Positions 4,903 to 36,244 of a stretch of DNA of 44,729 nucleotides are shown here, one piece after another. The notes beneath the pieces were generated by a model. That model was not told the DNA's origin. It ran no database searches and was given only the letters and a program-made list of their open reading frames with translations. The stretch comes from a virus: the IMG/VR virus record IMGVR_UViG_3300034082_002813, positions 1 through 44,729 of that record; one strand, written 5' to 3'. How positions within the stretch are numbered: the stretch's first letter is position 1; every line of letters starts with the position of its first letter. The translations under genes and the position numbers were made by a program.

Positions 4903-6099
4903 ATGAACACTCAAAACTTGAAATTACTTTTCCCATTTAACGAAAATAAAGATCATTCTCAAACCAGAAAAATACAAAGATACACCAGATTTGGTTTTAT
5001 AGAAAATGATAAAGAAATCATCGACCTAAGCCTAGGCAACGGCGGCGCCTTTTTGCTGGGGTTTGATAGACACGATATCATTGAATACGTGCATGAGAAG
5101 ATGCTAGAGAATCCTTTCGTCAGCGGTGAATACATGACAACCAACGAAGCTGTAATTAATCTCACAGAAAAGTTATTTGTTCTGAGTGGCGGATACCGAT
5201 CAGTATTTGCATTGTCGGGCAGTGATGCCGTAGAAGGTGCTATCAAGGTTGCTATGTTATATCATAAGTGTAAGAATCAAACACGTAACGATATATTAGG
5301 GATTCAAAACTCATACCATGGTAGTACGCATCTTACTGCCAGTATTGGAAATTTAAGCTTCATGGCGAAAAGTATGACTCCTCATCCTTTTTGCAAGCAG
5401 ATTACAAGAGAACAATCCGAACAACAGATGCTTGAAGAGATCGAATCTTATAAAAATACAGCTGCCTGCATGGTCATCGAGCCATGCAGTTGGTCTAATC
5501 ATCTAAAAAAATACAGTGAAAATTTTTGGGATGAATTAAAATCAATTTGCAAACGACACGATATATTATTAATATATGATGACATTGCCACAGGTGGAGG
5601 TAAAACTGGTGAATTTTTTGGTTTTAAAAAAACCCATGCGCCGGATATTTTTACAAGTGGAAAATCTTTTTCAGGAGGATACTTTCCGCTGAGCGCCTGT
5701 TTCGTTTCTGAACATGTCAACGAAGTTGTAAAGCATGGGTTTCTAAGTTATGGATTCACTTATAGTTTTTCGTTGAGTGGAATATATTGCACAACGAAAT
5801 ACATTGAAGTGTTAGAAAAAGAAAACTTGTTAGCAAATTTCAATGATACACTAAGTTCAACTGTCAAGGTAATGGAATATTTAAAAAATCATAATTTTAT
5901 ATACGATTATACAAATTATGGATTGTTATTCGATCTCAACACTCCCGACACCGCTGAGAAAACATATTATGCCAACGGATTGAACCCGGGGTTGTGGACC
6001 CCATCACTTGATCATTTGTTATTGATCATTCCGTTAAATGCTGATCAAGAATATTTTCAAATGCTACAGGATAGACTTGTTAACTCTTTGCGACGATAG
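4903..6099 (+). CDS. class III PLP-dependent aminotransferase
   Basis: The class III (ornithine/BioA-type) fold signature is clear: SGSDAVEGAIK (105-115) for phosphate binding, YHG at 138-140 stacking on the cofactor, IYDDIATGGGKTGEFFG with the acidic pair at 226-227, and TSGKSFSGGYFP with the Schiff-base lysine K254. Its 398 residues are near the usual length (about 420-450). Family members transfer amino groups between an amine or amino acid and a keto acid or aldehyde; the substrate cannot be read here. It converges on the amidinotransferase gene with a 20-nt overlap. Making an amine and then converting it to a guanidine is a sensible pair of steps, but this is inference. Confidence 0.9.
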   Translation: MNTQNLKLLFPFNENKDHSQTRKIQRYTRFGFIENDKEIIDLSLGNGGAFLLGFDRHDIIEYVHEKMLENPFVSGEYMTTNEAVINLTEKLFVLSGGYRSVFALSGSDAVEGAIKVAMLYHKCKNQTRNDILGIQNSYHGSTHLTASIGNLSFMAKSMTPHPFCKQITREQSEQQMLEEIESYKNTAACMVIEPCSWSNHLKKYSENFWDELKSICKRHDILLIYDDIATGGGKTGEFFGFKKTHAPDIFTSGKSFSGGYFPLSACFVSEHVNEVVKHGFLSYGFTYSFSLSGIYCTTKYIEVLEKENLLANFNDTLSSTVKVMEYLKNHNFIYDYTNYGLLFDLNTPDTAEKTYYANGLNPGLWTPSLDHLLLIIPLNADQEYFQMLQDRLVNSLRR

Positions 6100-7162
6100 A
6101 TCGATTATCACCTTTACGTTTCAAGTCAAGAGTCAAACAATGTATGCCTGCTTCCCAAAATAGTCCGTGTCTAATCGGAGCCACGTGACAGGTTACACCA
6201 AATGTATTGAGTAGTTCGAATACTTCTGGCTGTACAGCCGAGCAAATGATATTTTGCGGATCTACAACCAACACATTAGTTTCAAAAGCAACGTCTTGAG
6301 CGTATCCCTTCCATTCTTGCAACCAAGTATCTAACCATTCAAGAGACATATGATTTTTATTTTTAACGTTACTGGTCTGTTTTAAAAAATCTTGATAAGG
6401 AAACTTATCAAACTTTCCTTCGAGATTGATTATTTTTTTATTTTTTAGACATTGAGGAATCCAGGTCTCGCTCATACAAACCACAGTTTCATCGTTGATC
6501 ATGTAGAAGCCGTGATCTATATGACCCCAATTGTTTACTATGGTTCCGGAATTGTTGACGAAGTTAGTATCAATATTTCGCTTCATCCATTCCAATCCTG
6601 CCTGAGACCCAGGGCCTGCGTTATTGGTTATTAATGTATCACCGCACTTATACATGGTAGCAGCATGCCACAACACCTTGTCTTTGTAATCCTCTCCATA
6701 GATTGTTGGTCCGTCAACAAACCATTTCTTACCTTCAAAGTTATTAATCATCGGAGGCGGTTGGCTGATCCAATTGTATCCTTGATCGTACATGGATTTA
6801 AATATTTCATAATAATTAAATGAATCAAAATATCTATCAGGCATACTGGTATACGTTTGATAGATAGTATTTCCATAGGCTAGATATTGATCTCTCGGAA
6901 CGATGGGATTAGTAGCATAGAACACGCTAAATGTCGGTAGTTCTATTTTCTCTGGAAATTGATGCGGTATAGGTCTATGAACTTTCACTCCTAGTCCTTG
7001 TAAGATTTTCGCTAAATTATCTAAATCTTCTTTGGTTTCTTGTAATATTCGATTTATTAAAGGACGTGCTTCCGATTCAATATTCCAACCTAATGGTATT
7101 TCAGTATTGCAGTTGCCTACGATGACTTCTTCTAACGGATCCCAATTTGTATAGATACTCAT
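6080..7162 (-). CDS. glycine/inosamine-type amidinotransferase
   Basis: The family moves an amidino group, usually from arginine, to an amine and makes guanidino compounds. The catalytic triad of human AGAT is matched: CGD at about 174-176, HID in NWGHIDHGFYM at about 214, and the nucleophilic cysteine C342 in FWEAGIHCLTLDLKR. The spacing and the 360-residue length fit the family. The start is supported by an AAGGG ribosome-binding site before the ATG. A TTAAATA late box lies 30 nt upstream. The acceptor amine is unknown; the convergent aminotransferase gene is a plausible partner. Confidence 0.92.
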   Translation of the reverse strand: MSIYTNWDPLEEVIVGNCNTEIPLGWNIESEARPLINRILQETKEDLDNLAKILQGLGVKVHRPIPHQFPEKIELPTFSVFYATNPIVPRDQYLAYGNTIYQTYTSMPDRYFDSFNYYEIFKSMYDQGYNWISQPPPMINNFEGKKWFVDGPTIYGEDYKDKVLWHAATMYKCGDTLITNNAGPGSQAGLEWMKRNIDTNFVNNSGTIVNNWGHIDHGFYMINDETVVCMSETWIPQCLKNKKIINLEGKFDKFPYQDFLKQTSNVKNKNHMSLEWLDTWLQEWKGYAQDVAFETNVLVVDPQNIICSAVQPEVFELLNTFGVTCHVAPIRHGLFWEAGIHCLTLDLKRKGDNRSIVAKS

Positions 7163-8806: not shown

Positions 8807-9853
8807 GTGAATAATGAACAAATTGAAATCACAATCAAAGGTGATAGTTCTGCCACTCCTTTAACAATACAAGGTGTTACTAACGGTCTTTTTGGTAAGC
8901 AACCTTCCCTGCGATTAGCTGCTAGTCGAGGCAGTATTGAGAATCCCAAAGTCGTTCATAACAAAGACAGCCTAGGAGTAATAAAGTTTAATGCGTACAC
9001 AAATGGTAAAGTAGATCCTTTTGTAAATGCAGCTTTCATTGGAGCTTATGTTGATGACAAGTCGGCTCTAGAGGGAAAAGATTTAGTTGCAGCTTCGTTG
9101 GTGTTAGGGTCTTGTTCAGGAATATCCAAGGAGCAGTTTGTAACCATAGCACCAGACGGCACTATTATTGCTCCTCAATACAAATCATTCGATCCACAAG
9201 AAAAAAATTTATTAACTATCAAAGACGGCAGCATTATTATAGACTACGGCTCTAACCACACACCTGAATGGAAAGGAACAAATCAAAGTTTTCTTGATGG
9301 CACTGGCGGCGGATGCCGATATGATTACGATTTTCCATTAACTATAAACACAAAGAGTACTGCTGTAAAGATACAGCATCAAGGAAATTTCAAACAGCCA
9401 AGTTTAAGAATAGACAGCTTTGACGACAACAGCACACAGGCATCCTGGATGGCGTTTACTAGATGGAGAGGAACTCCTGCTGATCCTAAACCTTGTAAAC
9501 AAGGAGATTTTATATTTGCGTTTGACTGGTTGGCAAAGCCCTGCGAATCTCAAGATTGGGAATGGGGTATGGCACAGACCGCAATCATCGACGGAGTTCC
9601 TGAAAACGGGTTTGTTCCTGTGAGTATGAATTGGGTCACAAGAGACAAACCCTTTGGTCCTCCTACCTGTAGGGTAAAGATATCTAATGATGGGCAGTTG
9701 TATGCCTACCATGGCCTAGAAGTAAATCAAGAATTAAATTTAAATTTAGATACTGTAGATAATGCTGTGTTAGATTTTAACAAGATTAGATACGTAAAAA
9801 TTAACCTAAACGGAGAGGAGTATGCAATACCTGCATACGCTTTAAAAAAATGA
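8807..9853 (+). CDS. tail-fibre-related structural protein
   Basis: A 348-residue protein whose block at residues 34-70 (SLRLAASRGSIENPK followed by LGVIKFNAYT) matches a block in the tail-fibre-like protein at 34763 (SLTLASGRGTLSAPT followed by IGLIGFNAWT). The two share a domain and this one is probably a virion fibre or its cell-binding part. The start is uncertain. GTG at 8807 has its AGGA directly against it, while the ATG at 8814 is out of frame. A GGAG at 8770-8773 stands 6 nt before an in-frame ATT at 8780, which would add nine residues. It overlaps the next gene by ATGA. Confidence 0.75.
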   Translation: MNNEQIEITIKGDSSATPLTIQGVTNGLFGKQPSLRLAASRGSIENPKVVHNKDSLGVIKFNAYTNGKVDPFVNAAFIGAYVDDKSALEGKDLVAASLVLGSCSGISKEQFVTIAPDGTIIAPQYKSFDPQEKNLLTIKDGSIIIDYGSNHTPEWKGTNQSFLDGTGGGCRYDYDFPLTINTKSTAVKIQHQGNFKQPSLRIDSFDDNSTQASWMAFTRWRGTPADPKPCKQGDFIFAFDWLAKPCESQDWEWGMAQTAIIDGVPENGFVPVSMNWVTRDKPFGPPTCRVKISNDGQLYAYHGLEVNQELNLNLDTVDNAVLDFNKIRYVKINLNGEEYAIPAYALKK

Positions 9854-10455
9854 TAGTTGATCTTTTTCCTGTTAAAATTTATAAAACACAATATCAAGGC
9901 GACCTTGATTCTATAGTTGACAATCTCTATAATATTATCGACTTCGAATCTGTGAAATCAAACAATCAGGGATCCATGCGTGGAGAGGGAGTTTGTACCT
10001 ATGTGGATCGAAGAGATCTGCATACACTGCCAGAATTCGAAGAAATAAAATTGTTCATAGAACATCATGCTGCAATATATTGGAAAGACATAGGATATGA
10101 TGCTTATTTCAAACCTAAGGTAATTGAAATGTGGTGCAACATCTACAAATCCGATTCGTTTATTGATCTTCATAATCATGCACCCAGAGTCATGACCTCT
10201 AGTTTTTATCTTTGTAAAAAATCCGGAATAGGAAATATAGTTTACGAAAATCCGCTATCTACATTATTGAAACATCAACCTTATCACATAGACAAAAACA
10301 CTTACCATACGTTATTTGAACAACAGATAGATGGAGAGAGTGGGGATTTAATAATATTCCCAGGCTGGTTGAATCATAAAACTTTGCCTAACCAGGGGCA
10401 AGACAGAGTTATGATAGGAACAAATATATGCGCAGAACCATCGAACCAGAATTAA
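9850..10455 (+). CDS. 2OG-Fe(II) oxygenase, TIGR02466/2OG-FeII_Oxy_5 type
   Basis: The pattern is that of the short phage and bacterial family often annotated as putative 2OG-Fe(II) oxygenase: FP-x-x-I near the N-terminus, WCNIYKSDSFIDLHNHAPRVMTSSFYL with H108/H110, and GDLIIFPGWLNHKTLP with H176, then R186 in DRVMIGTNI. Its 201 residues match the family. It is coupled to the structural gene upstream (ATGA overlap), which raises the possibility that it modifies a virion protein. A relative is at 39406. Confidence 0.85.
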   Translation: MIVDLFPVKIYKTQYQGDLDSIVDNLYNIIDFESVKSNNQGSMRGEGVCTYVDRRDLHTLPEFEEIKLFIEHHAAIYWKDIGYDAYFKPKVIEMWCNIYKSDSFIDLHNHAPRVMTSSFYLCKKSGIGNIVYENPLSTLLKHQPYHIDKNTYHTLFEQQIDGESGDLIIFPGWLNHKTLPNQGQDRVMIGTNICAEPSNQN

Positions 10456-11093: not shown

Positions 11094-11253
11094 TGGTATG
11101 GGAATTCCATTCCCATGTGGTAAAGTCGTAGTACAGCTCAGTACCTGTACCTTGGGCCTCTCTAAAAATATAAAAATTAGTTTCAAGAGAAATCACAGCT
11201 TCGTCATTTTGCCAATGCTTGATAACACTGTTTAATTCTTTAATTTTTGACAT
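11038..11253 (-). CDS. small protein of unknown function
   Basis: A 71-residue reading frame, antisense to the end of the methyltransferase gene for 56 nt and overlapping the start region of the next minus-strand gene by 22 nt. The amino acid pattern (amphipathic start, VISLETNFYIFREAQGTG strand) looks protein-like, and the overlaps are normal for this genome. No motif is recognised. Confidence 0.5.
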   Translation of the reverse strand: MSKIKELNSVIKHWQNDEAVISLETNFYIFREAQGTGTELYYDFTTWEWNSHTIKILEVGVHPEAPDDREQ

Positions 11254-12026
11254 TTTGTATAAGAATAATCGATTAAGTTATCAATTGCTTGATATATTTC
11301 TTTAACAGTTTCCTCGGAAGCATCATCTCTCGATCTATAGGCACTAATTATTCCCTGTGCTCTTCTAAACCCGTCAAGGGTGGTCATCCAACTGTGTGCT
11401 ATCATTTCAATTTCCTGTCTGTTTTCTGATGTGAAATAAAATAACGTATCTTTGAAATAAATTTCGTCTTGGTATAAAAAATGATTTACCAGAACATGAT
11501 GATTTTCGTAGAAAGGTAAATCTAATTTTAAACACAGTTCCACTAACCAATAGTGAGCATCAATTATTTTTACTAGATACGCTGTAAACTCTTCTGAGAC
11601 ATTTTGACTTTTAGTCATGATCTCGATCAGATTATAAGCCGGCGGATATCCTAAACAGTTTTGCGGACTGGAAAATTCTGTGTAAAGAAGATCGCCGTCG
11701 ATGATTTTTTTGTGATTTAATATCGGTAAATGATTTTTATCTGCTGCTTGATATATTGTTTGATAGTTTTCTAGAGATGTTCTTTTACTTGCCACATCGG
11801 ATTGTAAGCAAAACATTTTTCCAGATTCGTCTAAACAATGCACGTATTGATAACTTATGGTCCAGATATTTTCGTCATTGATCATCCATGTGCAGTAGTC
11901 TTGATGATGTCGATACTGCCACAATTTTTCTTCTGGGTCTCTGGGATTGTTGCCTACGAATTTATCAAAATGGTCAACCCACTGTCTCCAGTCTAATATT
12001 AATTCAGTTTTTAATTTATCTAGCAT
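11232..12026 (-). CDS. protein of unknown function (264 aa)
   Basis: A soluble, aromatic- and acidic-rich protein without a motif I recognise. It contains FSSPQNCLGYPP, and a histidine-rich stretch (ENHHVLVNHFLYQDEIYFKD) in the second half. It lies directly downstream of the 12020 dioxygenase-like gene (7-nt overlap), so it belongs to the tandem oxygenase operon. Helical content appears high and I see no membrane segments. Confidence 0.7.
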   Translation of the reverse strand: MLDKLKTELILDWRQWVDHFDKFVGNNPRDPEEKLWQYRHHQDYCTWMINDENIWTISYQYVHCLDESGKMFCLQSDVASKRTSLENYQTIYQAADKNHLPILNHKKIIDGDLLYTEFSSPQNCLGYPPAYNLIEIMTKSQNVSEEFTAYLVKIIDAHYWLVELCLKLDLPFYENHHVLVNHFLYQDEIYFKDTLFYFTSENRQEIEMIAHSWMTTLDGFRRAQGIISAYRSRDDASEETVKEIYQAIDNLIDYSYTKCQKLKN

Positions 12027-12586
12027 GTGATCACGTGTTCGCTAATTTGCATTATTATTCTTGGAGTTAGCCCAATATTAACCGATCCATGCAGATCGTC
12101 GTCTTGATTATATTGAAAAAGGTCCCCTGCACTGTAATTATCTATGAATTTTCCCTGATGTAGAAAAACATGACCGGGCTCGTGATCGATCCATGGAAAC
12201 CAGAATCTATGATTGTTCTTTACTGGTTTAGCTGTGTCTCTATGGATAGGCATGAATTGTCCAGGCATCTGCTTAATGATCCACCAATCACCTTTGAGAA
12301 ATCTATTCAGTTCTCCGAGTTCTAGATCAAACGGCAAGTTATCTGCGGTAAACATTTCGGCCATGATTAAATTACTGTTATAGACTCCAGACAGAAACAG
12401 GTTCTGTTGTTCTTGATTTTTAGCATCGACTCTTTCTGGAATATATCGTTGTTCCAAAAGGGCAGCTGCTAATGCTGGATCGTCTACGTAGTCGTGAAAC
12501 GGAGTAATCAATGTACCTTTGCTTTCAAGTATTGATTGTATCCACTGAGGCTTAATGAGATGTTTATAGTTGCCGCAATATTTCAT
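12020..12586 (-). CDS. tandem-array dioxygenase-like protein A (MKYxGN family)
   Basis: A member of a local family starting MKYCGN...IKPQWI. H115 and D117 (PIHRD), H166 (LHGSVNIG) and R176 (LTPRIIMQI) reproduce the iron and 2-oxoglutarate site of the 2OG-Fe(II) fold. PGHVFLH and NYSAGDLFQY are the strands common to all family copies. I chose the ATG at 12586 because the four other array members (13336, 14277, 14777, 15292) start at this point; an ATG at 12601 adds five residues. It overlaps the upstream SGNH-like gene by 23 nt. The substrate is unknown. Confidence 0.8.
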   Translation of the reverse strand: MKYCGNYKHLIKPQWIQSILESKGTLITPFHDYVDDPALAAALLEQRYIPERVDAKNQEQQNLFLSGVYNSNLIMAEMFTADNLPFDLELGELNRFLKGDWWIIKQMPGQFMPIHRDTAKPVKNNHRFWFPWIDHEPGHVFLHQGKFIDNYSAGDLFQYNQDDDLHGSVNIGLTPRIIMQISEHVITC

Positions 12587-13346
12587 AACAGTGTTCGGCA
12601 TATGCAGAGTGTGCAGATTTGTCAGGATGCCCCCACGGCATTCTGGTTACTATAAAATCATCAAGATTTTTATCAGTAATACACAATGTTTTTTCTAACT
12701 CATCATATAGGTCTGGCAGCACTGGATAGTTGTAATTTTTTAATTCAAATGTTTTTCGAGACATTGCAGGAATCACAAAAAGATTTAAAGACGTTTGTAG
12801 GTAGCCTAACATTGAAAGATTTTTTATCTGATCCCATATTACACGGTCATCATTAAACCATTTTAGAATAGCCTTGTCTTCTTCTTTACCAACAACATAG
12901 TCTAAATTACCGTTGGCTCCGACGCCAAGTAATCGATCTTTTACAGGCCAGACCAAACCAGGTAATTGAAATGATTTAGCAGTGTCACTGAAGTACATAG
13001 ATCTATAAGGATTGGTTAAGGCAACGATTATCATATCATTGCTATTAAATTCTGTAATAGAAATTTGATAAAGCATCTTATCGAGACTGTTACCACTTTC
13101 TGCTAGATTTATACAATCTATATTCATCATACCAGCCAACAGATTTGGCCAAGATAATATTTTTTGTTTGTCTATCAGTGATTGGTATTGTCTAGACAGT
13201 TCCGCGTCTTTTTCAAGTGCATGAAAAAAGATCCTGGGGTCGTGTGCAGTATCCAGCCTCAGCTGATTTAGTTGTTGTATTTCATCTAAGAGAAGTTCTT
13301 CTCCTGTACTGTAACTGCAACCAAAGATATAAAGTTTAGGCTTCAT
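12564..13346 (-). CDS. SGNH-hydrolase-like protein
   Basis: Block I is FGCSYS (candidate nucleophile S11), NLAESGNSLD resembles the oxyanion-hole GxS/N blocks, and WGHPDKSAHSAYAEH near the C-terminus gives the D-x-x-H type pair. SGNH proteins are esterases, lipases or sugar O-acyl transferases and deacylases. The ATG at 13346 is preferred over a TTG at 13349. It sits inside the array of MKYxGN dioxygenase-like genes and overlaps both neighbours. Similar genes are at 33221 and 38718. Confidence 0.75.
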   Translation of the reverse strand: MKPKLYIFGCSYSTGEELLLDEIQQLNQLRLDTAHDPRIFFHALEKDAELSRQYQSLIDKQKILSWPNLLAGMMNIDCINLAESGNSLDKMLYQISITEFNSNDMIIVALTNPYRSMYFSDTAKSFQLPGLVWPVKDRLLGVGANGNLDYVVGKEEDKAILKWFNDDRVIWDQIKNLSMLGYLQTSLNLFVIPAMSRKTFELKNYNYPVLPDLYDELEKTLCITDKNLDDFIVTRMPWGHPDKSAHSAYAEHCYEILRQL

Positions 13347-13887
13347 CAAACACAGTAATCTGAAAAGTGATCCTTGTAGTGAGACCTATATTTGCAGCGC
13401 CGTGAACTCCAAACGGATCAGGAAATATAAAAGTATCACCCGCCTTGTAGTCAGCCACCATTGTATTTTCATACACTAATATATGTCCGTCCTGCCAGTC
13501 TAACCAACTCATCCAATATCTAACACAATTTTTTTCGAATTTAGGAATTCTATCACTGTGAATAGGCAATAGATGGCCGGGCTTGTATTTGAAAAGATTC
13601 CAATATGCTCCTTGGTTGGGTTTTAAATCTACAAATGGTGGTAATGTTAATTCAAAAGGAAAGTTATCCTGTTCAAACACATAGTACAACAACGAGTCAT
13701 GTCGGTATCCCACTTCTTCATATTTTTTTTGAAATTCGCAAAACTCAGCACGTTCACCTCGTGCTATTGCATCAAGGATTCCGTTTTCTTGGAATTCCCA
13801 TTTCGGCATTTCTTTGCCATCGTTTTCAAGAACGTATTTGATCCATTCAGGTTTGAGCCAGTTGCTGTAATTTCCTATAAATTTCAT
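13336..13887 (-). CDS. tandem-array dioxygenase-like protein B (MKYxGN family)
   Basis: The family start MKFIGNYSNWLKPEWI is followed by a charged variable region, then GHLLPIHSD (H110, D112), DGHILVYEN, DYKAGDTFIF, VHGAANIG (H162) and R172. All metal and co-substrate ligands expected for a 2OG-Fe(II) enzyme are present. Its 183 residues match its paralogues. The differences from them lie mainly in residues 22-95, the part likely to contact the substrate. It overlaps the SGNH-like gene downstream by 11 nt. Confidence 0.82.
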   Translation of the reverse strand: MKFIGNYSNWLKPEWIKYVLENDGKEMPKWEFQENGILDAIARGERAEFCEFQKKYEEVGYRHDSLLYYVFEQDNFPFELTLPPFVDLKPNQGAYWNLFKYKPGHLLPIHSDRIPKFEKNCVRYWMSWLDWQDGHILVYENTMVADYKAGDTFIFPDPFGVHGAANIGLTTRITFQITVFDEA

Positions 13888-13888
13888 G

Positions 13889-14284
13889 TTATCCTAAAAT
13901 TAAACATTTGACTTTAACGTTATCTAGTGGTATTTTATTATCGAGACACAACGATAGTATGCGTAAAAATCTGTGGCGGCCGTTCACAACCTTATGAATA
14001 TTTTCTGAATCTATCATAATTTCAAGAGATTCATAATTTTGTGTCAAACAGTCTTCGAGTGTAATAGTTTCTACTGATTTAAAATAATTATCAGAAAATT
14101 CAGGAAGCACAACATGATCAGAATATACCTTGAAACTATAACAAACATCTTTAAATATTCCATACTGACGAATAAAGTCATCAGTGTGTACAATCGGATC
14201 ATATCTCGATCTGAAATGTATGGTGTGATAATTTAAAGATCGACGTTCTATATCTAAAAAATTTTTTATATTAATTTCAATCAT
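13889..14284 (-). CDS. small protein with ParB/sulfiredoxin-like GRHR motif
   Basis: A 131-residue protein with VVNGRHRFLRILSL near the C-terminus, which resembles the nucleotide-binding GxHR motif of ParB/sulfiredoxin-like domains. The remainder has no recognised motif and the domain would be small, so function is open. It lies between two array dioxygenase-like genes, 1 nt from the next gene and overlapping the previous one by 8 nt. Confidence 0.65.
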   Translation of the reverse strand: MIEINIKNFLDIERRSLNYHTIHFRSRYDPIVHTDDFIRQYGIFKDVCYSFKVYSDHVVLPEFSDNYFKSVETITLEDCLTQNYESLEIMIDSENIHKVVNGRHRFLRILSLCLDNKIPLDNVKVKCLILG

Positions 14285-14780
14285 GAGTAGTAAATTGAAG
14301 CACCAATCTTGGTGTCAACCCTATGTTGGCAGCTCCGTGCAACGCCTGTGAGTTTTCATACTCATATACATCGCCGGCTCTGTAATTTACTATGACCTCA
14401 TCCTCATAAGCAAAAATATGTCCCTGTTGCCAATCTTGTAAAGGCATCCAGTATCTTTTACAATTTAGTTGATACATAGTATGAGGATCTTTATGCATCG
14501 GCATAAAATCTCCAGGCATCATTTTCGTTATCCACCAATGAAAATTTGACGGATTCCCGCAAGGGGGAATCACTTCAAAAGATACATTGGTTTTATCAAA
14601 CATTTGAAAATATGTTCCTTGATCATCGTAGCCTGCTTTTCTAGCTATACTATATTCCTCTTCCATTTCGGAAGAATCTGGTTGTTTACCATCTCTGGGT
14701 CGGAACATCCCGTCCTTAGATAACAGTTCTTCTATCCATTTAGGCTCCACTATATTTATGAAATTTCCCACATATTTCAT
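14277..14780 (-). CDS. tandem-array dioxygenase-like protein C (MKYxGN family)
   Basis: Starts MKYVGNFINIVEPKWI. H96 and D98 (PMHKD), QGHIFAYED, NYRAGDVYEY, LHGAANIGLTPR with H148 and R158. It is the shortest array member (167 aa), with a short variable region. The ligand set is complete, so it is probably an active 2OG-Fe(II)-type enzyme. It is coupled to the upstream copy by an ATGA overlap (14777-14780). Confidence 0.82.
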   Translation of the reverse strand: MKYVGNFINIVEPKWIEELLSKDGMFRPRDGKQPDSSEMEEEYSIARKAGYDDQGTYFQMFDKTNVSFEVIPPCGNPSNFHWWITKMMPGDFMPMHKDPHTMYQLNCKRYWMPLQDWQQGHIFAYEDEVIVNYRAGDVYEYENSQALHGAANIGLTPRLVLQFTTHD

Positions 14781-15295
14781 ACTGTTTCTCCGGTTGTGCT
14801 TACTTGTAAAATTAATCTAGGACTATGCCCGATATTTATAGCACCATGTATAGCCAGCGGATCTTCGTATTCCCATAGGTCGCCTGCGATATATTTTGTG
14901 ATACTGATATTCTCATACATAAAAATGTGACCCGGTTGCCAATCTTGCAAAGGCATCCAATATCGTTTACCTTTGAGATGTTTTGGACCGTCGCGGTGTA
15001 CGGGAATAAACTGTCCAGGATACATCTTCGTAACCCACCAATCAAACCTTTCATTTAACCATGGCGGTTGTATATCAAAATCTAGACACTTGCTTTCTAA
15101 TAGATAGAAAAAAATCTTGTCTGTGCCGTACACCTTGTACACCTTTCTTTCTGATTCGTGCATAGTAGATCGTTGACCAAGAGCGATTTCTTTATCTATA
15201 TTAAACTCTTTAGGAGCGCCAAATCCCTGTATAGATAAAATATCATCTATCCAAGATGTTTGAATCCAGTCTTGATAATTTCCTAGGTATTTCAT
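14777..15295 (-). CDS. tandem-array dioxygenase-like protein D (MKYxGN family)
   Basis: Starts MKYLGNYQDWIQTSWI. H100 and D102 (PVHRD), RYWMPLQDWQPGHIFMYEN, KYIAGDLWEY, IHGAINIGHSPR with H150 and R160. RYWMPLQDWQ is shared nearly identically with copy C, so C and D are the closest pair and probably arose by a recent tandem duplication. The start overlaps the stop of copy E by ATGA (15292-15295). Confidence 0.82.
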   Translation of the reverse strand: MKYLGNYQDWIQTSWIDDILSIQGFGAPKEFNIDKEIALGQRSTMHESERKVYKVYGTDKIFFYLLESKCLDFDIQPPWLNERFDWWVTKMYPGQFIPVHRDGPKHLKGKRYWMPLQDWQPGHIFMYENISITKYIAGDLWEYEDPLAIHGAINIGHSPRLILQVSTTGETV

Positions 15296-15987
15296 ACAAT
15301 GTCTAAGTTTCTTGAAATTTTGTAATCAGTTATCTGTAGTATTGCTCGAGGACTATGACCTATGTTTACTGCACCATGCCATGCTCCGGGATTTTCAAAC
15401 ATAAAAACATCCCCAGCTCGATAATCAGTAATAACACGATCTTCGACCATAAAAATATGTCCTTTTTCGTAGTTAGTCCAAGGCATCCAATACTTGTGAA
15501 TTTTTATATTGGGATCTGCTTTGTCTATATGCATGGGCATGATATGACCAGGATCCATTTTGCTAAACCACCATGTAATATGTTTATCCTTCCAATCTAA
15601 GAAAGGAGGAGGATCTTCTAGGATATCAAAGCTGACATCAAATTTTTCCATCAATCTAAAATGATCGGCCCAAACATCGTAGCCTGCATCATGATACATG
15701 CCGTATTCTTCGTCTAATTTTCTCTTGGGATCGAGATAGTTGGAATGAATCCTGGCATGCCTTACAACATTATCATTGGAATCCATAGCATCGAGCTCGG
15801 TGATAAGTTGATCGTATTCTTGTTGGGATAGTACTCTATCTACATCCTTGATGTATGATTTAAGTATTGGATTGAATCGTGCTTCGTTGCGTAAACTATG
15901 CTTGGGCATCTCAAACCCGGGATGAGTAATGACTTCATTTAACCATTCAGGTTTGATCCAATTAAAAAAATTACCGATGTATTTCAT
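15292..15987 (-). CDS. tandem-array dioxygenase-like protein E (MKYxGN family)
   Basis: The first gene of the array operon and the longest copy (231 aa). Starts MKYIGNFFNWIKPEWL. It carries an insertion of about 50 residues (about 35-90), then MPMHIDK (H153, D155), KGHIFMVED, DYRAGDVFMF, WHGAVNIGHSPR (H204, R214). A GATAAATA late promoter is 5 nt before the ATG, so the mRNA should be leaderless and should run on through copies D, C, B and A. Confidence 0.83.
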   Translation of the reverse strand: MKYIGNFFNWIKPEWLNEVITHPGFEMPKHSLRNEARFNPILKSYIKDVDRVLSQQEYDQLITELDAMDSNDNVVRHARIHSNYLDPKRKLDEEYGMYHDAGYDVWADHFRLMEKFDVSFDILEDPPPFLDWKDKHITWWFSKMDPGHIMPMHIDKADPNIKIHKYWMPWTNYEKGHIFMVEDRVITDYRAGDVFMFENPGAWHGAVNIGHSPRAILQITDYKISRNLDIV

Positions 15988-16019: not shown

Positions 16020-16613
16020 TTATATTATGAGATCAGGAGTAAATCTCACAGCTAATAACATACGAACCTTATTACTGCTGTTGATAACTTGGTGTGGAAT
16101 GTCTACTTTGACTATGGTTGGTTCATCGACTACCACCCGATCTATTAGATGTTTGTCCCCGTGCCATGTTAGTTGTAAAGAATTTAATTTTTTAACGTCG
16201 GTGCGAGTTTCTGGTTTAAATCCGTTATCGTAATCAGGTGCATTAGATATAGTAGAAACATCAAATTTTCCACCCCACCATACCATTTCGCCCTTCTCAC
16301 AGTTTTTAATAGGGATATTCAAGGACCATATTATAGCATCGGGTTTTGGCGGCCAGAAACCATCGACATGTTCTATAGGATGGCTATTTGGTCCTTGACC
16401 GAATATTACGGCTCTGTGAAACTGATGTTTCCTACCTGTATATTTTTCTACATCGGGTAAGATATTGTCGATGATCCATTGAGATTCGACACTGTCTTTT
16501 CTAAATTCTATTATTTCTGTAACACCTGTTTCAACCTCAGGCATTAAATTTTTATATCGATCTTTAATCTTTCTAAGATTTCTTAGAGAGATTCCTTGAT
16601 AATAGACCTTCAT
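16020..16613 (-). CDS. 2OG-Fe(II) dioxygenase-fold protein
   Basis: HPIEHVDGFWPPK supplies H82 and D84. VKVDIPHQVINSSNKVRMLLAVR supplies H174 and R184. The strands between (IIWSLNIPI, GEMVWWGGKF) fit the beta-helix. It is not a member of the MKYxGN family. It follows the nitroreductase gene directly, with start and stop abutting at 16613/16614, so the two share a transcript. The substrate is unknown. Confidence 0.77.
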   Translation of the reverse strand: MKVYYQGISLRNLRKIKDRYKNLMPEVETGVTEIIEFRKDSVESQWIIDNILPDVEKYTGRKHQFHRAVIFGQGPNSHPIEHVDGFWPPKPDAIIWSLNIPIKNCEKGEMVWWGGKFDVSTISNAPDYDNGFKPETRTDVKKLNSLQLTWHGDKHLIDRVVVDEPTIVKVDIPHQVINSSNKVRMLLAVRFTPDLII

Positions 16614-17285
16614 TTAATATTCTACAACAGGTATTTCTTGTCTCGGATTAGTTGGATATTTTATTTCAGGTGTTGTGTGATGCAATCTACGACTAACACC
16701 TTGTTGTTTAAATCCAACTCCCATTACCAACAACGGTTTCCCTTGCATGTCTAGAGTTTTTTTCAATTCGTCGTGTTTCATAGAGATACAACACCCTGTC
16801 TCATAACCTAAAAGGTTAGCAGTGAGGTTAAGATAACCAGAAGCAATGCCCACTGCTACATGTTTATCGAAGTCTTTAGGCTTATCTTCTATGCGTTTTT
16901 CTTTAAAATACTCTTCTACATTGTAGTATTCTTCAAATACTACTACAAGATTTGCCAACACCTGCGACTGAGTAGTATCTCCCATGTCGTACAAATGATC
17001 ATCTTCTTTGGGATTAGGGTCGACTAATATTCCTTTTTCGGTTTTTCTATACGGAGCACCGTGAGTACAACCGTGTACTTTTTCTATGATTTCTCGGTCT
17101 TGTATCCAATGTATTTTATAAAAAGCAACATTCTGTAAACTAGGAGCTTGTGTGATAGAAGTCTTGAGTATTTCAAGATGCTCTTGGGGTATATCTTTAG
17201 AGAGATCCCAGTTCCGTTGGCAATGCTGGCTTTTTATAATGGCTTTTTTAATGTCTTTAGAGTCGAACGTATTTTCTGTAATCAT
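16614..17285 (-). CDS. nitroreductase-family flavoprotein
   Basis: KSQHCQRNWDLSKDIP (18-33) is the FMN-binding start of the nitroreductase fold, APSLQN follows, and VAVGIASGYLNLTANLLGYETG plus a C-terminal VMGVGF complete the typical pattern. Such proteins reduce nitro groups, quinones, enones or flavins with NAD(P)H. Similar genes are known to me in marine phages. The start is supported by CAGGAG before the ATG, and a GATAAATA box lies about 27 nt upstream. Confidence 0.87.
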   Translation of the reverse strand: MITENTFDSKDIKKAIIKSQHCQRNWDLSKDIPQEHLEILKTSITQAPSLQNVAFYKIHWIQDREIIEKVHGCTHGAPYRKTEKGILVDPNPKEDDHLYDMGDTTQSQVLANLVVVFEEYYNVEEYFKEKRIEDKPKDFDKHVAVGIASGYLNLTANLLGYETGCCISMKHDELKKTLDMQGKPLLVMGVGFKQQGVSRRLHHTTPEIKYPTNPRQEIPVVEY

Positions 17286-20738: not shown

Positions 20739-21615
20739 TAATAGGAATATCAGCTGCACAGGTACACCAATCTCTAGTACACACGATCGGTTCAGCGGGC
20801 ACCGTAAAACTACCTGTGTAGATATTTCCTAAACTGCCGCCAACCCTGCAGGTAGCACGATGTACTTCTCCATCCCAATTTATCATAAGGCTTTCTAGTC
20901 CGGCATTACAAGACCAACCTTTAAATTGATTTAGATGCTGTTTGATCACATCATTGGCATGCATAATTTGAGAATCGTCTATCCTACAATTAGGCTTCAC
21001 AGTAGCATCGTGACTTAAAATCCATTGTAGATCTTTTCCATCATATTTTAGATCATCAAACACATTGTGGTCACCTTCGGTCCAGCGAATTCTACGAATA
21101 GCATATTTGATTCCAACCTCATCAAACTTTTTAACTACGAGTTTCACATTGTGCATATATTTGTGATGAGCCATTATGTTAACAAAAAACTCTCGTTCAG
21201 TACTGTCGTAGAATTTTAAAATCGTATCAAATATACGTGTCCAATCTTGTTCAAAATGCAGACTAAACACAAGATGATTGAAGAATATTTCATTTTCAAG
21301 ATACCACCGATATCCCCTGGTCCCGTTTGTAGTCAAGTTAACCCAGAATATATCTTTGCGTTTGAAGTATTCTAATAAATCTTCTATATCAGGATGTACG
21401 CAAGGTTCGCCTCCAGTTAGGCTAATGCGTAACGGTTTTCCTAGTTCACACAATTTATCAACAGTTGATTCTAGAATATTAATATCTGTATGCGGACTAA
21501 AATTATCGTGTATTTCCGAGGGACAATATGTACAATCATAGTTACAGCGTTTACCAAGGTTCCATTCTACTTTGATTTGATCCTGATGCGGCCATACGCT
21601 GGTTATTTTATTCAT
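20722..21615 (-). CDS. radical SAM protein with C-terminal cysteines
   Basis: EWNLGKRCNYDCTYCPSEIHD carries the cluster cysteines. ISLTGGEPCVHPD is the GGEP motif. FKGWSCNAGLESLMINWDGEVHRATC, then CTRDWCTC, match the auxiliary-cluster region of the 203 and 19746 proteins. It is the last gene of a minus-strand operon that runs from the QueC-like gene through a twitch rSAM and two hydroxylase-like genes. It overlaps the upstream hydroxylase gene by 8 nt. Confidence 0.9.
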   Translation of the reverse strand: MNKITSVWPHQDQIKVEWNLGKRCNYDCTYCPSEIHDNFSPHTDINILESTVDKLCELGKPLRISLTGGEPCVHPDIEDLLEYFKRKDIFWVNLTTNGTRGYRWYLENEIFFNHLVFSLHFEQDWTRIFDTILKFYDSTEREFFVNIMAHHKYMHNVKLVVKKFDEVGIKYAIRRIRWTEGDHNVFDDLKYDGKDLQWILSHDATVKPNCRIDDSQIMHANDVIKQHLNQFKGWSCNAGLESLMINWDGEVHRATCRVGGSLGNIYTGSFTVPAEPIVCTRDWCTCAADIPITKIAT

Positions 21616-22240
21616 CTATAGAACTTTTTAATACATCAATGAACAGTGATACTCTTGTAAAATCTGTTCTGTTCCATCCTTGATGATCGTAAGCACCATC
21701 AAATGCTAATGCTTCGTCGGTCTTCCAAGTTTTAAAACCGTGTCCGGGAAATTCTAATCCTATTTCATCATTGTCAAAAGGCGGGATCCAAAGACCTATC
21801 ATTATTTGATATGTAGGGGCAACAACACCATTGGCCATAACGCCACCGACATAGTCTTGCCCAGAGCCGTTGTAGGTCTTACTGTCGCTGTGTAAGGGAG
21901 TTATTGATTGGGGTCCGATATAGTTTATAACTGCTTGCGTAACAGTTTCTATTTTTTCAAATTCGTTTTTGAGTAAGATATATCTTTGATCTATTTTATC
22001 AGCAATAAACTGAAAGTCGGGCAACCGTTGATATACTGTTATGGCATTCCATTTGATGGGATTTTCTGGTCGGTCTTTTCTTAGATAAAAACCTTTATAT
22101 TGATCGTTGATTTTTTCTATGTTTATAGGATAGCCGTCATCGCCGACCACAATCTTTTTAGCCATCGAGACCAATGGCCACAGTTTATCGTAGTCTTTGT
22201 ATTTTGTTGGATCTTTCCAAACAGATGTCATAGGCTCCAT
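21608..22240 (-). CDS. aspartyl/asparaginyl hydroxylase-like 2OG-Fe(II) protein
   Basis: The C-terminal half matches the Asp/Asn beta-hydroxylase pattern: SITPLHSDSKTY (H-x-D), IMIGLWIPP, GLEFPGHGFKTWKTDEALAFDGAYDHQGWNRTDFTRVSLFIDV, which contains the distal histidine and the arginine. Its 210 residues suggest a single catalytic domain. It is adjacent to and overlaps a sister gene at 22228 by 13 nt, so the pair may hydroxylate related substrates. An alternative ATG at 22231 follows a GGAG. Confidence 0.82.
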   Translation of the reverse strand: MEPMTSVWKDPTKYKDYDKLWPLVSMAKKIVVGDDGYPINIEKINDQYKGFYLRKDRPENPIKWNAITVYQRLPDFQFIADKIDQRYILLKNEFEKIETVTQAVINYIGPQSITPLHSDSKTYNGSGQDYVGGVMANGVVAPTYQIMIGLWIPPFDNDEIGLEFPGHGFKTWKTDEALAFDGAYDHQGWNRTDFTRVSLFIDVLKSSIDE

Positions 22241-22797
22241 TCTTCTTGTTTAATATCCATATTTATAGTATAGCGCCATTGGTCAGTAAAATTCCACGAG
22301 CCGTGTGTAATGCCTCCATCAAATGCAACAATATCATTTGTACTAAATTTTATTTTTTCATTACCTAACTGAAACCCGCATTTGTCTACGGGAACATCTG
22401 GAATGTTGACTCCGATTAATATAACATATACCTTGTTTGATTTAGATAGATCAGTGCGCATGTCATAGTCATAGTCACTGTGAAAGGGAGCTTCGCCTCC
22501 TGGTGCGATGGCATTTACGCTGAAATTAACTATTCCCGGCAAGGACTTTGCCTTTTGTGTCAGCTGTGGTAGTAAACTACTCCACTCAGTTTCTTGACTC
22601 GCACGTAGATTAGGAACTGCATACCAATTCCACACCTTTGGACCCATTGGATGACCATATTGTTTTTCAAACCATTTGTAGTCAGCCATATCATACGGAG
22701 TCTTGTTAGCTAGAAATACTGTTAATTCTTGTTGCGCTAGAATTAATATTTCGTCAATTAATGGCCAATGTTGATATTTTTTATAATCAAGGAACAT
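22228..22797 (-). CDS. aspartyl/asparaginyl hydroxylase-like 2OG-Fe(II) protein
   Basis: APFHSDYDYDMR provides H-x-D. VILIGVNIPDVP, CGFQLGNEKIKFSTNDIVAFDGGITHGSWNFTDQWRYTINMDI completes the Asp/Asn hydroxylase pattern with the second histidine and an arginine. I chose the ATG at 22797, which has GGAG ten bases upstream and overlaps the twitch rSAM gene by 11 nt. A TTG at 22827 would extend it by ten residues. It is a sister of the 21608 gene. Confidence 0.82.
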   Translation of the reverse strand: MFLDYKKYQHWPLIDEILILAQQELTVFLANKTPYDMADYKWFEKQYGHPMGPKVWNWYAVPNLRASQETEWSSLLPQLTQKAKSLPGIVNFSVNAIAPGGEAPFHSDYDYDMRTDLSKSNKVYVILIGVNIPDVPVDKCGFQLGNEKIKFSTNDIVAFDGGITHGSWNFTDQWRYTINMDIKQEEWSL

Positions 22798-24100
22798 ATC
22801 TTTTAAACTCCGGTGTGTTAGATACAAAACTTTGTTGTCTGGTAGAATCTAATTTTTTATTAAAATCTATGCACTCTTCCCATAACTCGCTTTGATCGTT
22901 GGCTTCTAAAAAATTAATTACACCAGTGATCTGTCCAAGAGTAATATCTAATAAAATAGGATTTTCTTTAACGTATTTAAAATCTGGTACACGTTGCATT
23001 ACATTCTGTAATCTTTCTATAGCTAATATTTTTAGATATTTAGGTAACACCTGCGGTGACAACACTTTAGGGTAATTTACCATATTGGTATAAAAAACAA
23101 TCCCTAAATCGTCTAAAAAATATTCTATCATTTTATCTAAAATTAAAATATTGCTGACCTGCACAGCAACAGCCCCTACGATTCGACTTACATTGGGAAT
23201 TGTTTGTATCTGTTTTATATTGTTGATTAGTTCCGCCCATGATGCATTTCCTCGAATATATTCATAACTACTTCCTATACCATCTATGCTTACATTGACA
23301 GCAACACTTTTAAATTTAGGCCAATACTGCCACACAGTTCTATCGCTCTTGCCTAGCATAGTCAAGTTAGTAGCATACTTGATTTCGATGTTGTCTCCGT
23401 ACGGAGCAAGCATATCTAAAATTTTATAATGTGTAGGATCCATCAATGGTTCACCGCCGGCAAATTCTACACGTCTAAAGTAAGGCAATAGTTTTTCAAA
23501 ACTTTCCCACCAATTAGGGGTATCTACAAAACTGTCTAAGAACGGCTTGTTCTTGAGATTTAAGTCTATGATCTTTTTTACTAAAAAATTATCTTCTTTT
23601 TCGTAATGTGATTCTACTTCTTGCCAATCATTCCAGCTGGTCGAATCCATGGGATTACACATACGACATTTTAAATTGCATAGATTGTTTAATTTAATTT
23701 CCATTGTAGGAAAGTTAAAAGGCATGGTCATTTCTGGATGTAACTCGGCCAACGCTTTGGGGTAGAGGTTGATTCGAGCTTCGGGTATAACACCGTTAAC
23801 GTGTCGTTGACGCAGACTTTCAACTCCCTGATCTTCTAATGCAAAACAGGGCGCACACTCGGGTGGCCGCTTTCCGGACAATACCTGACTGCGAATTCTT
23901 CGCATGGTATCATTGTTCCAAATTTGTTCAAGCGTGTTTTTTTGAATAAAGCCGATAGGATGGCTTCGACAGCAGACTTTAACAGCGCCGTCTTCGCGTG
24001 TTGCTAATCCTGTAAAAGGATGCATACAAAATGTTTTACTATTGATCAATGGCCCACTCTCTTTCTTTGCACCAAAAACATTCTCCGCAAACCGGAACAT
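22787..24100 (-). CDS. twitch-type radical SAM protein (copy 2)
   Basis: FCMHPFTGLATREDGAVKVCCRSHP and CAPC are the N-terminal twitch cysteines. NNLCNLKCRMCNPMDS is the SAM cluster and FAGGEPLMDP the GGEP motif. NVSIDGIGSSYEYIRG and the tail NTPEFKRYVP align with the 18451 and 28626 copies. The start is uncertain. The ATG at 24100 overlaps the conserved cysteine end of the previous gene by 62 nt, whereas a TTG at 24049 would begin seven residues before the first twitch cysteine, as in copy 1. It may act on the same substrate as the two hydroxylase-like genes it overlaps. Confidence 0.88.
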   Translation of the reverse strand: MFRFAENVFGAKKESGPLINSKTFCMHPFTGLATREDGAVKVCCRSHPIGFIQKNTLEQIWNNDTMRRIRSQVLSGKRPPECAPCFALEDQGVESLRQRHVNGVIPEARINLYPKALAELHPEMTMPFNFPTMEIKLNNLCNLKCRMCNPMDSTSWNDWQEVESHYEKEDNFLVKKIIDLNLKNKPFLDSFVDTPNWWESFEKLLPYFRRVEFAGGEPLMDPTHYKILDMLAPYGDNIEIKYATNLTMLGKSDRTVWQYWPKFKSVAVNVSIDGIGSSYEYIRGNASWAELINNIKQIQTIPNVSRIVGAVAVQVSNILILDKMIEYFLDDLGIVFYTNMVNYPKVLSPQVLPKYLKILAIERLQNVMQRVPDFKYVKENPILLDITLGQITGVINFLEANDQSELWEECIDFNKKLDSTRQQSFVSNTPEFKRYVP

Positions 24101-24764
24101 ATTGTCCTTTGGTATAATTTGTAAAATCTATTTCTTCAAACGTGCCTTCACAGCTTCTAGTGAGTTCTAAAAGGTCTGTAATTTCCAGTCTTTTATATTG
24201 TGAGATAACCCAACTTTTATCTACAAATCTAAAAGGATGAATGGCCCATCGATCCATATGTTTCATGATCTTAAGATGTTGATTACTATCATTGGCATCG
24301 ACGTTTCTTTCTTCCATACCTCCGAGATCAACTGATATTGGGTTTCTAGTGACTGCATTGTAGTATGCATTGATATTATGTTTGTGACAAACGAATTCTG
24401 CATATGCACGTTGTTGTATGTTATCACCGCTGACCTTTTTACCGTATTCGTCTGTTAGAATAGGCCCAACATCACCGTATTCTAATTCAGGTGCTATAAA
24501 GTTTGTATGCCGAACAAACTTGGTGTGATAAAATCTTTGGAACAGCCAATTATATACATCATTGGCGTTATCTTGTTGCCAAGGCTTTGTCTTCCAACAA
24601 CGTACATGATTAATAATGTGCATGGTAACGTTGTGATCTTTGGCTAGGTCGCAAATTAGATAGGCCAACAGCGCACTGTCAGCACCTCCACTTACGCTGA
24701 TGGCTATATTTTCCCATGAGTGATCAAAGGGTACAAGACAGTTATCTATATTATAATGGTTCAT
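24039..24764 (-). CDS. QueC-like PP-loop ATP pyrophosphatase
   Basis: ISVSGGADSALLAY (SGGADS at 25-30) is the PP-loop of N-type ATP pyrophosphatases. The C-terminus has TRSCEG then VPVCGECFWCKERE, the cysteine pattern that binds zinc in QueC (7-cyano-7-deazaguanine synthase). No QueD, QueE or QueF gene is visible in this window, so it may amidate or thiolate another carboxylate. I chose the ATG at 24764, which forms an ATGA junction with the gene before it; an ATG at 24785 is in frame. Confidence 0.8.
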   Translation of the reverse strand: MNHYNIDNCLVPFDHSWENIAISVSGGADSALLAYLICDLAKDHNVTMHIINHVRCWKTKPWQQDNANDVYNWLFQRFYHTKFVRHTNFIAPELEYGDVGPILTDEYGKKVSGDNIQQRAYAEFVCHKHNINAYYNAVTRNPISVDLGGMEERNVDANDSNQHLKIMKHMDRWAIHPFRFVDKSWVISQYKRLEITDLLELTRSCEGTFEEIDFTNYTKGQYVPVCGECFWCKEREWAIDQ

Positions 24765-25969
24765 AGCCAGTCTCTGCAGTGCCATGTGGGCTTGGTGAGA
24801 TTGTTGATATCTGTTACAGCAATATTGTGATATAAATCACCATCTACGAATCCAGTAGATGCCCGCAATGAAAAATTAATAGTTGCAGATGAAAAGTAAT
24901 TTTTAATAGTCGTGATCATTGCATTTTCTTTGAACAATCTCTGCTCCAGACTGTATAAAATACTGGTAGCTTCGTAGGCATAGATGTTTGACAAATTTAT
25001 CAAGGTAGGTAATTCTTTATCAAAGTGATCGAACTCATATATATCTGTGAGTAGATCTATTTTCAAAAACACATAAGTGACATTAGAGATGTTCGGTTTA
25101 TGAATTTCCCAGTAGTCTAAGGCCTTTTGATTATAGTCGTAGATCACTACAGTAACAGGCTTTGATTTATCAATCATGGATTGCCACCACGATCCGCTGG
25201 CCGGTACAAAAAATTGTTCAAACACTTGATCTTGAAAGTTAACATTTTCGGTATGATCAGTATGCACAAACTCTGTTAAACAATAATTGAATCTTTGATA
25301 TGCCCATTGTATATGATTTATAAATTCTTGTTGGTTTTCTGGGTAATAATGTTTTTTATGTTGACGTATATTATTGTCAAATACTACCACAGGAATATCA
25401 CAATCGAATGCTACACTTAATATATTATGTCCATGCATCTTGTGGTTGTAGTCTGTTTCATCTTCACCACCAGATATCCGCATTGGGGTATAATCATCGT
25501 GTATATTATCATTGCTGCGCCAGGGTTTTGTTTTGCGGTGTTTAACCCCTAGCTGTTGTTTTCCTATCCGAGGGCTTCCTAGTTGTTGATATATGTCTAG
25601 GTTGATGTAGTAGCATTGATGGTGCAGTTCATAATATGCATCTGCTCGATCTAATATGTGGCCTGCAATAAACACTTTTTCTTTATGTAGTTTTTCTATC
25701 TCATTATAGAAACTATCACCGTTGATAAATTCTGTACCTGTAGAGAATATCACAGCAGCTTGATATTGTTGATCACAGGCCATCTGTAACAATATATCCT
25801 CGTCTTGTCCTTGTAATATATCGTATCCTTTTGAAAATGTATTCGAGATAGTGAAGTCGGATATATTTTTAATCAGTTCTTTTGACCATTCACTGGTATA
25901 GATATGTGTATTATCAACTATACAAAATACTATAGGTTTCTTAAAATTCTGAAATTTAATTACGTTCAT
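24761..25969 (-). CDS. protein of unknown function with possible C-terminal Rossmann fold
   Basis: A 402-residue protein. The N-terminal half has FCIVDNTHIY, AAVIFSTGTEF and FIAGHILDRADAYYELHHQCYYINL, a pattern I have seen only in uncharacterised phage proteins. The C-terminal half has VTVVIYDYNQKALDYW and LINLSNIYAYEATSI, which look like motif II and a post-motif strand of methyltransferase-type Rossmann domains, though no glycine motif is clear. The ATG at 25969 is chosen over a TTG at 25993. It is coupled to the QueC-like gene by ATGA, so the two probably form a functional pair. Confidence 0.75.
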   Translation of the reverse strand: MNVIKFQNFKKPIVFCIVDNTHIYTSEWSKELIKNISDFTISNTFSKGYDILQGQDEDILLQMACDQQYQAAVIFSTGTEFINGDSFYNEIEKLHKEKVFIAGHILDRADAYYELHHQCYYINLDIYQQLGSPRIGKQQLGVKHRKTKPWRSNDNIHDDYTPMRISGGEDETDYNHKMHGHNILSVAFDCDIPVVVFDNNIRQHKKHYYPENQQEFINHIQWAYQRFNYCLTEFVHTDHTENVNFQDQVFEQFFVPASGSWWQSMIDKSKPVTVVIYDYNQKALDYWEIHKPNISNVTYVFLKIDLLTDIYEFDHFDKELPTLINLSNIYAYEATSILYSLEQRLFKENAMITTIKNYFSSATINFSLRASTGFVDGDLYHNIAVTDINNLTKPTWHCRDWL

Positions 25970-36151: not shown

Positions 36152-36183
36152 ATCTATAACTCCTGGAATTGTTCTACCACATA

Positions 36184-36190
36184 TATTTAT
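36184..36190 (-). promoter_or_regulatory. T4-type late promoter (ATAAATA) for the tail-fibre-like gene
   Basis: A minus-strand ATAAATA box with a leader of about 27 nt containing CAGGAG before the ATG at 36151. Confidence 0.65.
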
Positions 36191-36213
36191 GCCGCTGATA
36201 TCAGAACACAGAG

Positions 36214-36244
36214 TCAAAAAAATAGCACCCGAAGGTGCTATTTT
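36214..36244 (-). terminator. rho-independent terminator with C(TTCG)G loop
   Basis: On the minus strand an 11-bp stem (AAAATAGCACC/GGTGCTATTTT) with a TTCG loop is followed by T7. It ends the 36294-38604 operon before the tail-fibre gene. On the plus strand the T run is shorter, but the stem could also act there. Confidence 0.85.

Follow-up and report, generated by a model that had tools for sequence, protein, structure and literature searches.

Why would a phage keep five related oxygenase genes side by side, and for how long has it done so? The question is raised by a 44,729-base virus record from IMG/VR (IMGVR_UViG_3300034082_002813), which derives from an uncultured large aquatic phage and was analysed over its whole length (hereafter, the window). 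An earlier note on this DNA described a tandem array of five paralogous dioxygenase-like genes at positions 12020–15987, and all five open reading frames are indeed present on the minus strand. We letter them in the order of transcription, the reverse of that used in the earlier note (whose C and D are our C and B): A (15292–15987, 231 amino acids, aa), B (14777–15295, 172 aa), C (14277–14780, 167 aa), D (13336–13887, 183 aa) and E (12020–12586, 188 aa from the conserved MKYCGNY start, with a longer form of 193 aa possible from an ATG at 12601). The genes almost certainly encode 2-oxoglutarate (2OG)-Fe(II) oxygenases. They represent a new, phage-specific family that lies outside curated Pfam thresholds, is absent from the cultured phages searched and has been kept as an ancient five-gene operon.

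A full-length alignment of the five proteins leaves 30 columns invariant, among them M1, K2, G5, N6, HxD, GH, Y-x-AGD, HG-x-x-NIG and an R. Every pair is homologous far beyond chance, from the most distant, A with E (28% identity, E ~1e-21 when scaled to a database of 1e8 residues), to the closest, B with C (42%, E 7e-41), and the five are true paralogues. The complete set of metal and 2OG ligands noticed earlier (HxD...H...R) is found in all five. Across an alignment of 93 family members, the metal triad H96, D98 and H148 (HxD...H) is invariant in 93/93, and the 2OG-binding R158, ten residues past H148, is R in 90 and K in three. The structure predicted for C from this alignment (mean predicted local distance difference test score, pLDDT, 94.7) is a double-stranded beta-helix (DSBH) in which H96-x-D98 closes a strand and H148 and R158 begin the last two strands. 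When the model was re-aligned to solved structures, the top matches were 2OG-Fe(II) oxygenases: PiuC (Z 13.2; root-mean-square deviation 3.0 over 148 residues), the hypoxia-inducible factor prolyl hydroxylase PHD2 (11.9), SnoN (11.8), AlkB (11.7) and P4H (11.3). Thus, structure prediction, which the earlier note had proposed as a check on a shared fold, gives the expected dioxygenase barrel for C. The DSBH is common to C and the PiuC, PHD2, AlkB and P4H structures (Z 11–13 over about 140–148 of 167 residues), but identity to these enzymes is only 10–16%, so their substrates cannot be transferred to the array.

Cupins came first in Foldseek's own PDB ranking (E ~1e-5); we rejected this assignment because cupins lack the HxD...H...R set with the 2OG arginine and because re-alignment ranked 2OG oxygenases first with far longer coverage. 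A sequence search of the PDB returned weak beta-hydroxylase matches only (best E 0.07). The best sequence-family match of the array family is Asp_Arg_Hydrox (PF05118), whose gathering cut-off of 22.6 bits is reached by none of the copies (A 17.8 bits, B 13.5 bits; no Pfam match for C, D and E). In profile comparisons (hhalign), the array family matched PF05118 members encoded elsewhere in the window with probabilities of 94% (22228–22827) and 86% (21608–22240), with the others lower. These sub-threshold scores and profile links place A–E near, but not within, the Asp/Asn-hydroxylase family. AspH itself lacks the HxD carboxylate ligand, whereas the array family has it. A0A6J5KYJ0, an uncharacterised protein of an uncultured Caudovirales phage for which neither a function nor an array has been described, probably belongs to the same family as the array copies (TM-score 0.87, 29% identity).

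To place the array in time, we compared it with the 77 loci that a scan of viral contigs returned for the family (L-numbers denote these loci or the stretches fetched around them; L002 is the same sequence as L003–L005, L006 the same as L007–L010, and L052 a close relative of L006). L001, L002, L006 and L016 carry these five genes in unchanged order, with the same SGNH gene among them. In trees, each of A–E forms its own orthologous clade with one gene for each of these phages, and orthologues of A are also found in L011. Constraining all array copies to a single clade was rejected by the approximately unbiased (AU) test (log-likelihood, lnL, -226; p-AU 2.5e-90). D is the most widely kept copy; it is also found in another type of array (L012, L013, L017, L070), most of whose remaining members are different. 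Of the clades, that of C is on the shortest stem, and it clusters with genes from related phages in which one main copy is present. Whole records of the array phages contain five strong family matches and one or two weak ones; phages of 217, 221 and 364 kb, in which T4-type portal and capsid genes are present, have one strong match. Taken together, the trees and whole-record counts indicate that the duplications are old, that C is nearest to the ancestral state and that copy number is stable within the five-copy lineage. Duplication and divergence predate the split of the array-bearing phages, and the individual copies have persisted from then on; the array is thus very probably old and its copies separately maintained.

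The variation in copy number between related phages that the earlier note envisaged is seen in the wider family (1 to about 7 copies, those of distant relatives being of other types) but not within the five-copy lineage. Likewise, the note had held that relatives keeping the same five genes would speak against its account of local duplication, and this is largely what the closest relatives do, though not the distant ones. Its observation that two copies (our B and C) are nearly identical at RYWMPLQDWQ is correct as to the sharing; however, since RYWMPLQD is the family consensus, the match is retained ancestral sequence and no sign of recent duplication. No relative of the array family was found in the cultured phages searched, and none of the embedded SGNH gene or of a 265-aa neighbour (27836–28633). 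Bacterial-genome scans, one with the array family and one with a radical S-adenosylmethionine (radical-SAM) neighbour, also returned no relative, using short back-translated patterns that distant relatives can escape. Separately, L011 differs from the otherwise ~99.9% identical L016 by two deletions (165 and 228 nt, within 8560–9400 of L011) that truncate A, B and C; both are multiples of 3 and lack microhomology, and they may reflect gene decay or an assembly artefact.

If the copies are old, what distinguishes them? Between the window paralogues, the segment from residue 22 to the catalytic core (hereafter, the variable segment) is 16–30% identical and ranges from 60 to 117 aa, whereas the core is 37–60% identical and near-constant in length, just as the earlier note had read from the sequence. 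Within orthologous groups, however, segment lengths are nearly fixed (A 117–118, B 64–71, C 60, D 74–76 and E 73–79 aa). Relative to L001, the nearest relative, nonsynonymous changes in the segment are few (A 6/285 sites, B 12.5/155, C 26/145, D 0/180 and E 7/186), and the ratio of nonsynonymous to synonymous rates (dN/dS) is 0.00–0.25 in all five copies, which indicates purifying selection; no positive selection was seen in the segment in this comparison. Only this comparison is informative: distant pairs have reached saturation at synonymous sites, as have several core windows even between the window and L001. Among distant orthologues the segment changes faster than the core in B, C and E, and in D relative to L006 and L016, but not in A.

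A local duplication of recent date whose copies still diversify in their substrate contacts, the account drawn from the earlier note, would agree with the tandem order and with a segment that outpaces the core both between paralogues and in these distant orthologues. Yet the array copies do not form one clade, they have one-to-one orthologues in order in four relatives, and their segments are constrained, so that we find this account scarcely credible. The pattern is one of settled specialisation and not of present-day diversification. Judging from the fold, the segment may contact the substrate, and the copies likely differ in specificity.

The array lies within a run of ten tightly packed minus-strand genes that extends from 17285 down to 11232. 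The run begins with a nitroreductase-family flavoprotein (16614–17285; PF00881, 30.4 bits, cut-off 23.5) and a 197-aa likely 2OG oxygenase directly upstream of A (16020–16613; HVD...H...R motif, hhalign 71% with the PF05118 member at 25956–26615), continues with A, B, C, a GRHR gene, D, an SGNH-like gene and E, and ends with a 264-aa gene (11232–12026) that is kept after E in five-copy arrays. Because most neighbours overlap by a few bases (for example, by 4 nt where the stop of A meets the ATG of B), the run appears to be one operon, and the overlaps suggest that A–E are co-expressed. The two embedded genes are as described earlier. The SGNH-like hydrolase/acyltransferase gene (12564–13346, 260 aa) has the conserved Ser, Gly, Asn and His blocks of SGNH hydrolases, with FGCSY, GNS and WGHP invariant in eight orthologues; it has no Pfam or NCBIfam match and no meaningful PDB sequence match. 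It follows D in every array where D was seen. The GRHR gene (13889–14284, 131 aa) carries a ParB/sulfiredoxin-like “NGRHRF” motif, recognised by eye only; searches of Pfam, PHROG and NCBIfam gave no notable family match. Among the arrays seen, the gene is present only in the window and L001.

What the enzymes act on may be approached from their surroundings. A tail-fibre-like protein, recognised by eye from LRLAASRG-type repeats (8807–9853, plus strand; no Pfam or PHROG match), is conserved facing the array operon, and a receptor-binding-type protein with an Mtd_N domain is encoded at 34763–36217 (minus strand; PF18454, 36.5 bits, cut-off 26.3). Of the 51 window genes tested, 41 have matches, with gene order almost unchanged, at 180–219 kb of a 265-kb phage contig (G002), defining a syntenic island of ~40 kb, and Mtd_N proteins occur in both. 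In G002, about 27–28 tRNA genes and a transfer-messenger RNA-like gene adjoin the island (172–180 kb; L086 12470–19939), a gene of the flavin-dependent tryptophan-halogenase family lies inside it (209 kb, L088 9300–10865; PF04820, 313.6 bits; also in L013 and L057), and CsgG and curlin-repeat genes (160–165 kb; L086 449–2827) and a sugar epimerase lie outside. In single-copy phages the family gene is most often beside homologues of the genes at 27836–28633 and 29854–30543, often near Mtd-type proteins, and the former is the family's commonest direct neighbour (20 adjacencies); the enzyme set around family genes is re-shuffled between phages. The host recognition cluster of the T4-like pelagimyophages is a variable island of large size that carries radical-SAM cassettes as well as tail fibres; it is marked by glycosyltransferases and located between VrlC and gp14, with curli genes elsewhere in the genome (PMC7029224). 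The window island likewise has tail-fibre or receptor-binding genes and radical-SAM genes, and curli genes are present in the 265-kb relative.

As a whole, we lean, with somewhat less than even confidence, toward five anciently diverged, paralogue-specific oxygenases that tailor a surface polymer or adhesin. In this scheme, the ancestor would have been one C-type gene, which related T4-like large phages still have in single copy; its duplication would predate the split of the array-bearing phages, and the copies would then have taken separate roles, conserved since. The operon, translationally coupled, would yield all five oxygenases at once. Each would hold Fe(II) by HxD...H and 2OG by the arginine ten residues on, and use O2 for the hydroxylation (or another oxidation) of a single defined position, with the paralogue-specific segment before the barrel core setting specificity. 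The substrate might be a host envelope glycan or the phage's own adhesins, altering receptor recognition or superinfection; a surface polymer is the most likely candidate because the operon sits in an island of tailoring enzymes beside tail-fibre and Mtd-type genes. D might be partnered by its SGNH neighbour, which would acylate or deacylate the hydroxyl that D has made, although such sequential action, suggested by linkage, is rather doubtful.

Several observations weigh against this proposal, and that A–E modify an envelope polymer or adhesin is a tentative suggestion drawn from context. The fold of C matches protein-, nucleic-acid- and small-molecule-acting enzymes about equally, and C is the one copy that folded well, the model of A being poor (pLDDT 65). 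Unlike in the pelagimyophage clusters, Pfam recognised no glycosyltransferase among the window proteins scanned, and a model of the T4 neck protein gp14 matched nowhere and so gave no placement of the island relative to named T4 genes. Should the substrate turn out to be an adhesin or a polymer of the envelope, hydroxylation-based tailoring would join the means by which phages tune host recognition. The array comprises five conserved sub-types whose orthologues are defined; it has a clear single-copy outgroup and, for one sub-type, an SGNH gene as constant partner, so that its function can be tested by comparison and simple biochemistry. A more specific version, which we judge unlikely, is that the island is a modular tailoring system of T4-related phages in which anciently duplicated, sub-specialised 2OG oxygenases hypermodify a phage peptide or the tail fibres of the phage itself; their partners would be radical-SAM, B12-radical-SAM, SGNH, kinase-like and sometimes halogenase enzymes. 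If true, this would amount to post-translational diversification of receptor-binding proteins.

Other substrates must be weighed against a surface polymer or adhesin. Radical-SAM/SPASM, B12-radical-SAM and halogenase superfamilies are typical peptide-tailoring enzymes, and the window holds ten radical-SAM genes (203–44000), two with B12-binding domains and several with SPASM, besides the halogenase in the same island of the relative. The five oxygenases could therefore decorate a phage-encoded peptide or metabolite in the manner of ribosomally synthesised and post-translationally modified peptides, together with these radical-SAM enzymes and the methyltransferase, amidinotransferase-like, PP-loop and aminotransferase genes. 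However, neither a precursor peptide nor a scaffold-forming enzyme was recognised, and an enzyme set that is re-shuffled between phages is ill-suited to one fixed product; we regard both this role and the partners named for it as fairly unlikely. Nor do we put much weight on AlkB-like modification or repair, in which the copies would hydroxylate or demethylate phage DNA or tRNA. AlkB is among the structural matches (Z about 11.7), a tRNA cluster borders the island and a PP-loop ATPase with a weak TilS match lies nearby, but protein and small-molecule hydroxylases match as well or better and five specialised copies beside fibre-type genes would be unexpected for repair, which makes this role improbable.

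It has also been proposed, for cyanophage 2OG oxygenases, that such enzymes draw down 2OG and make succinate, steering host nitrogen and energy metabolism (PMC3037559). One active copy would be enough for bulk turnover, whereas five diverged copies, individually conserved with group-specific segments, imply distinct substrates, and metabolic control is accordingly a very improbable explanation of the array. Overall, the reading of A–E as surface-tailoring enzymes remains the one we prefer.

Beyond the array, the earlier note had not remarked on a sixth paralogue or on the many other 2OG oxygenases and radical-SAM genes around it. The sixth, divergent paralogue (27317–27862, plus strand, 181 aa; hhalign 100% with the family) has HWD...H...K, a Lys replacing the 2OG-binding Arg; its homologues form runs of 2–3 in L026 and adjoin the array in L012. 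Four further genes exceed Pfam cut-offs: a 2OG-Fe(II) oxygenase (9850–10455, plus strand; PF13759, 46.8 bits; phrog_81, E 3e-29) and three minus-strand oxygenases of the Asp/Asn-hydroxylase type (PF05118), at 21608–22240 (35.7 bits), 22228–22827 (31.2 bits) and 25956–26615 (39.7 bits). With A–E, these bring the firm 2OG oxygenases in the window to at least ten. Seven more are likely from weaker profile matches together with the motif (genes at 8117, 16020, 26415, 27836, 30540, 31175 and 39406), giving ~17 in all; that at 27836–28633 (minus strand, HRD...H...R) encodes the 265-aa neighbour mentioned above. Counting by HxD...H...R alone was abandoned, as the motif occurs in 19% of shuffled proteins and in 6/34 other window proteins; the motif alone being weak evidence, the count rests on Pfam and profile matches.

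Aquatic phages very commonly encode 2OG oxygenases, whose function in them has not been specifically investigated; for instance, cyanophage S-SCSM1 encodes 24 (pfam13640, pfam13661, pfam13759 and pfam05721) in at least 13 clusters (PMC9602691), compared with 0–5 in other cyanophages (PMC3037559). The sets of T4-like cyanophages, too, can combine many 2OG-Fe(II) oxygenases of low mutual identity in one phage. Those of S-SCSM1, however, are spread over several pfam families, whereas the array places five genes of one family, which those models do not cover, in a single operon.

Among the remaining enzymes, a 229-aa kinase-like protein, recognised by eye (29854–30543, minus strand), recurs with the 27836–28633 gene and the array family, and a radical-SAM/SPASM-twitch enzyme is encoded at 22787–24100 (minus strand; PF04055 and PF13186). 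Another radical-SAM gene (1765–2934) has a zinc ribbon of the pterin-methyltransferase type. The island also encodes a class-III aminotransferase, a methyltransferase, a nitroreductase, a PP-loop protein and a fatty-acid desaturase. A minus-strand gene at 6080–7162 appears amidinotransferase-like by eye (WDPLEEVIVG...), has no family match and is kept in several relatives, and a 410-aa protein (24761–25993) is faintly glycosyltransferase-like by eye. The halogenase, considered as a regular partner of the family, was set aside, being carried by only three distinct phages in the fetched stretches; in G002 its gene is divergent from, and overlaps, a fibre-like gene. About 30 kb from the island, the same contig encodes a giant protein of 4,416 aa (250226–263473; L090–L091) that is probably a tail fibre. 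Finally, nine tRNAs lie toward the right end of the window.

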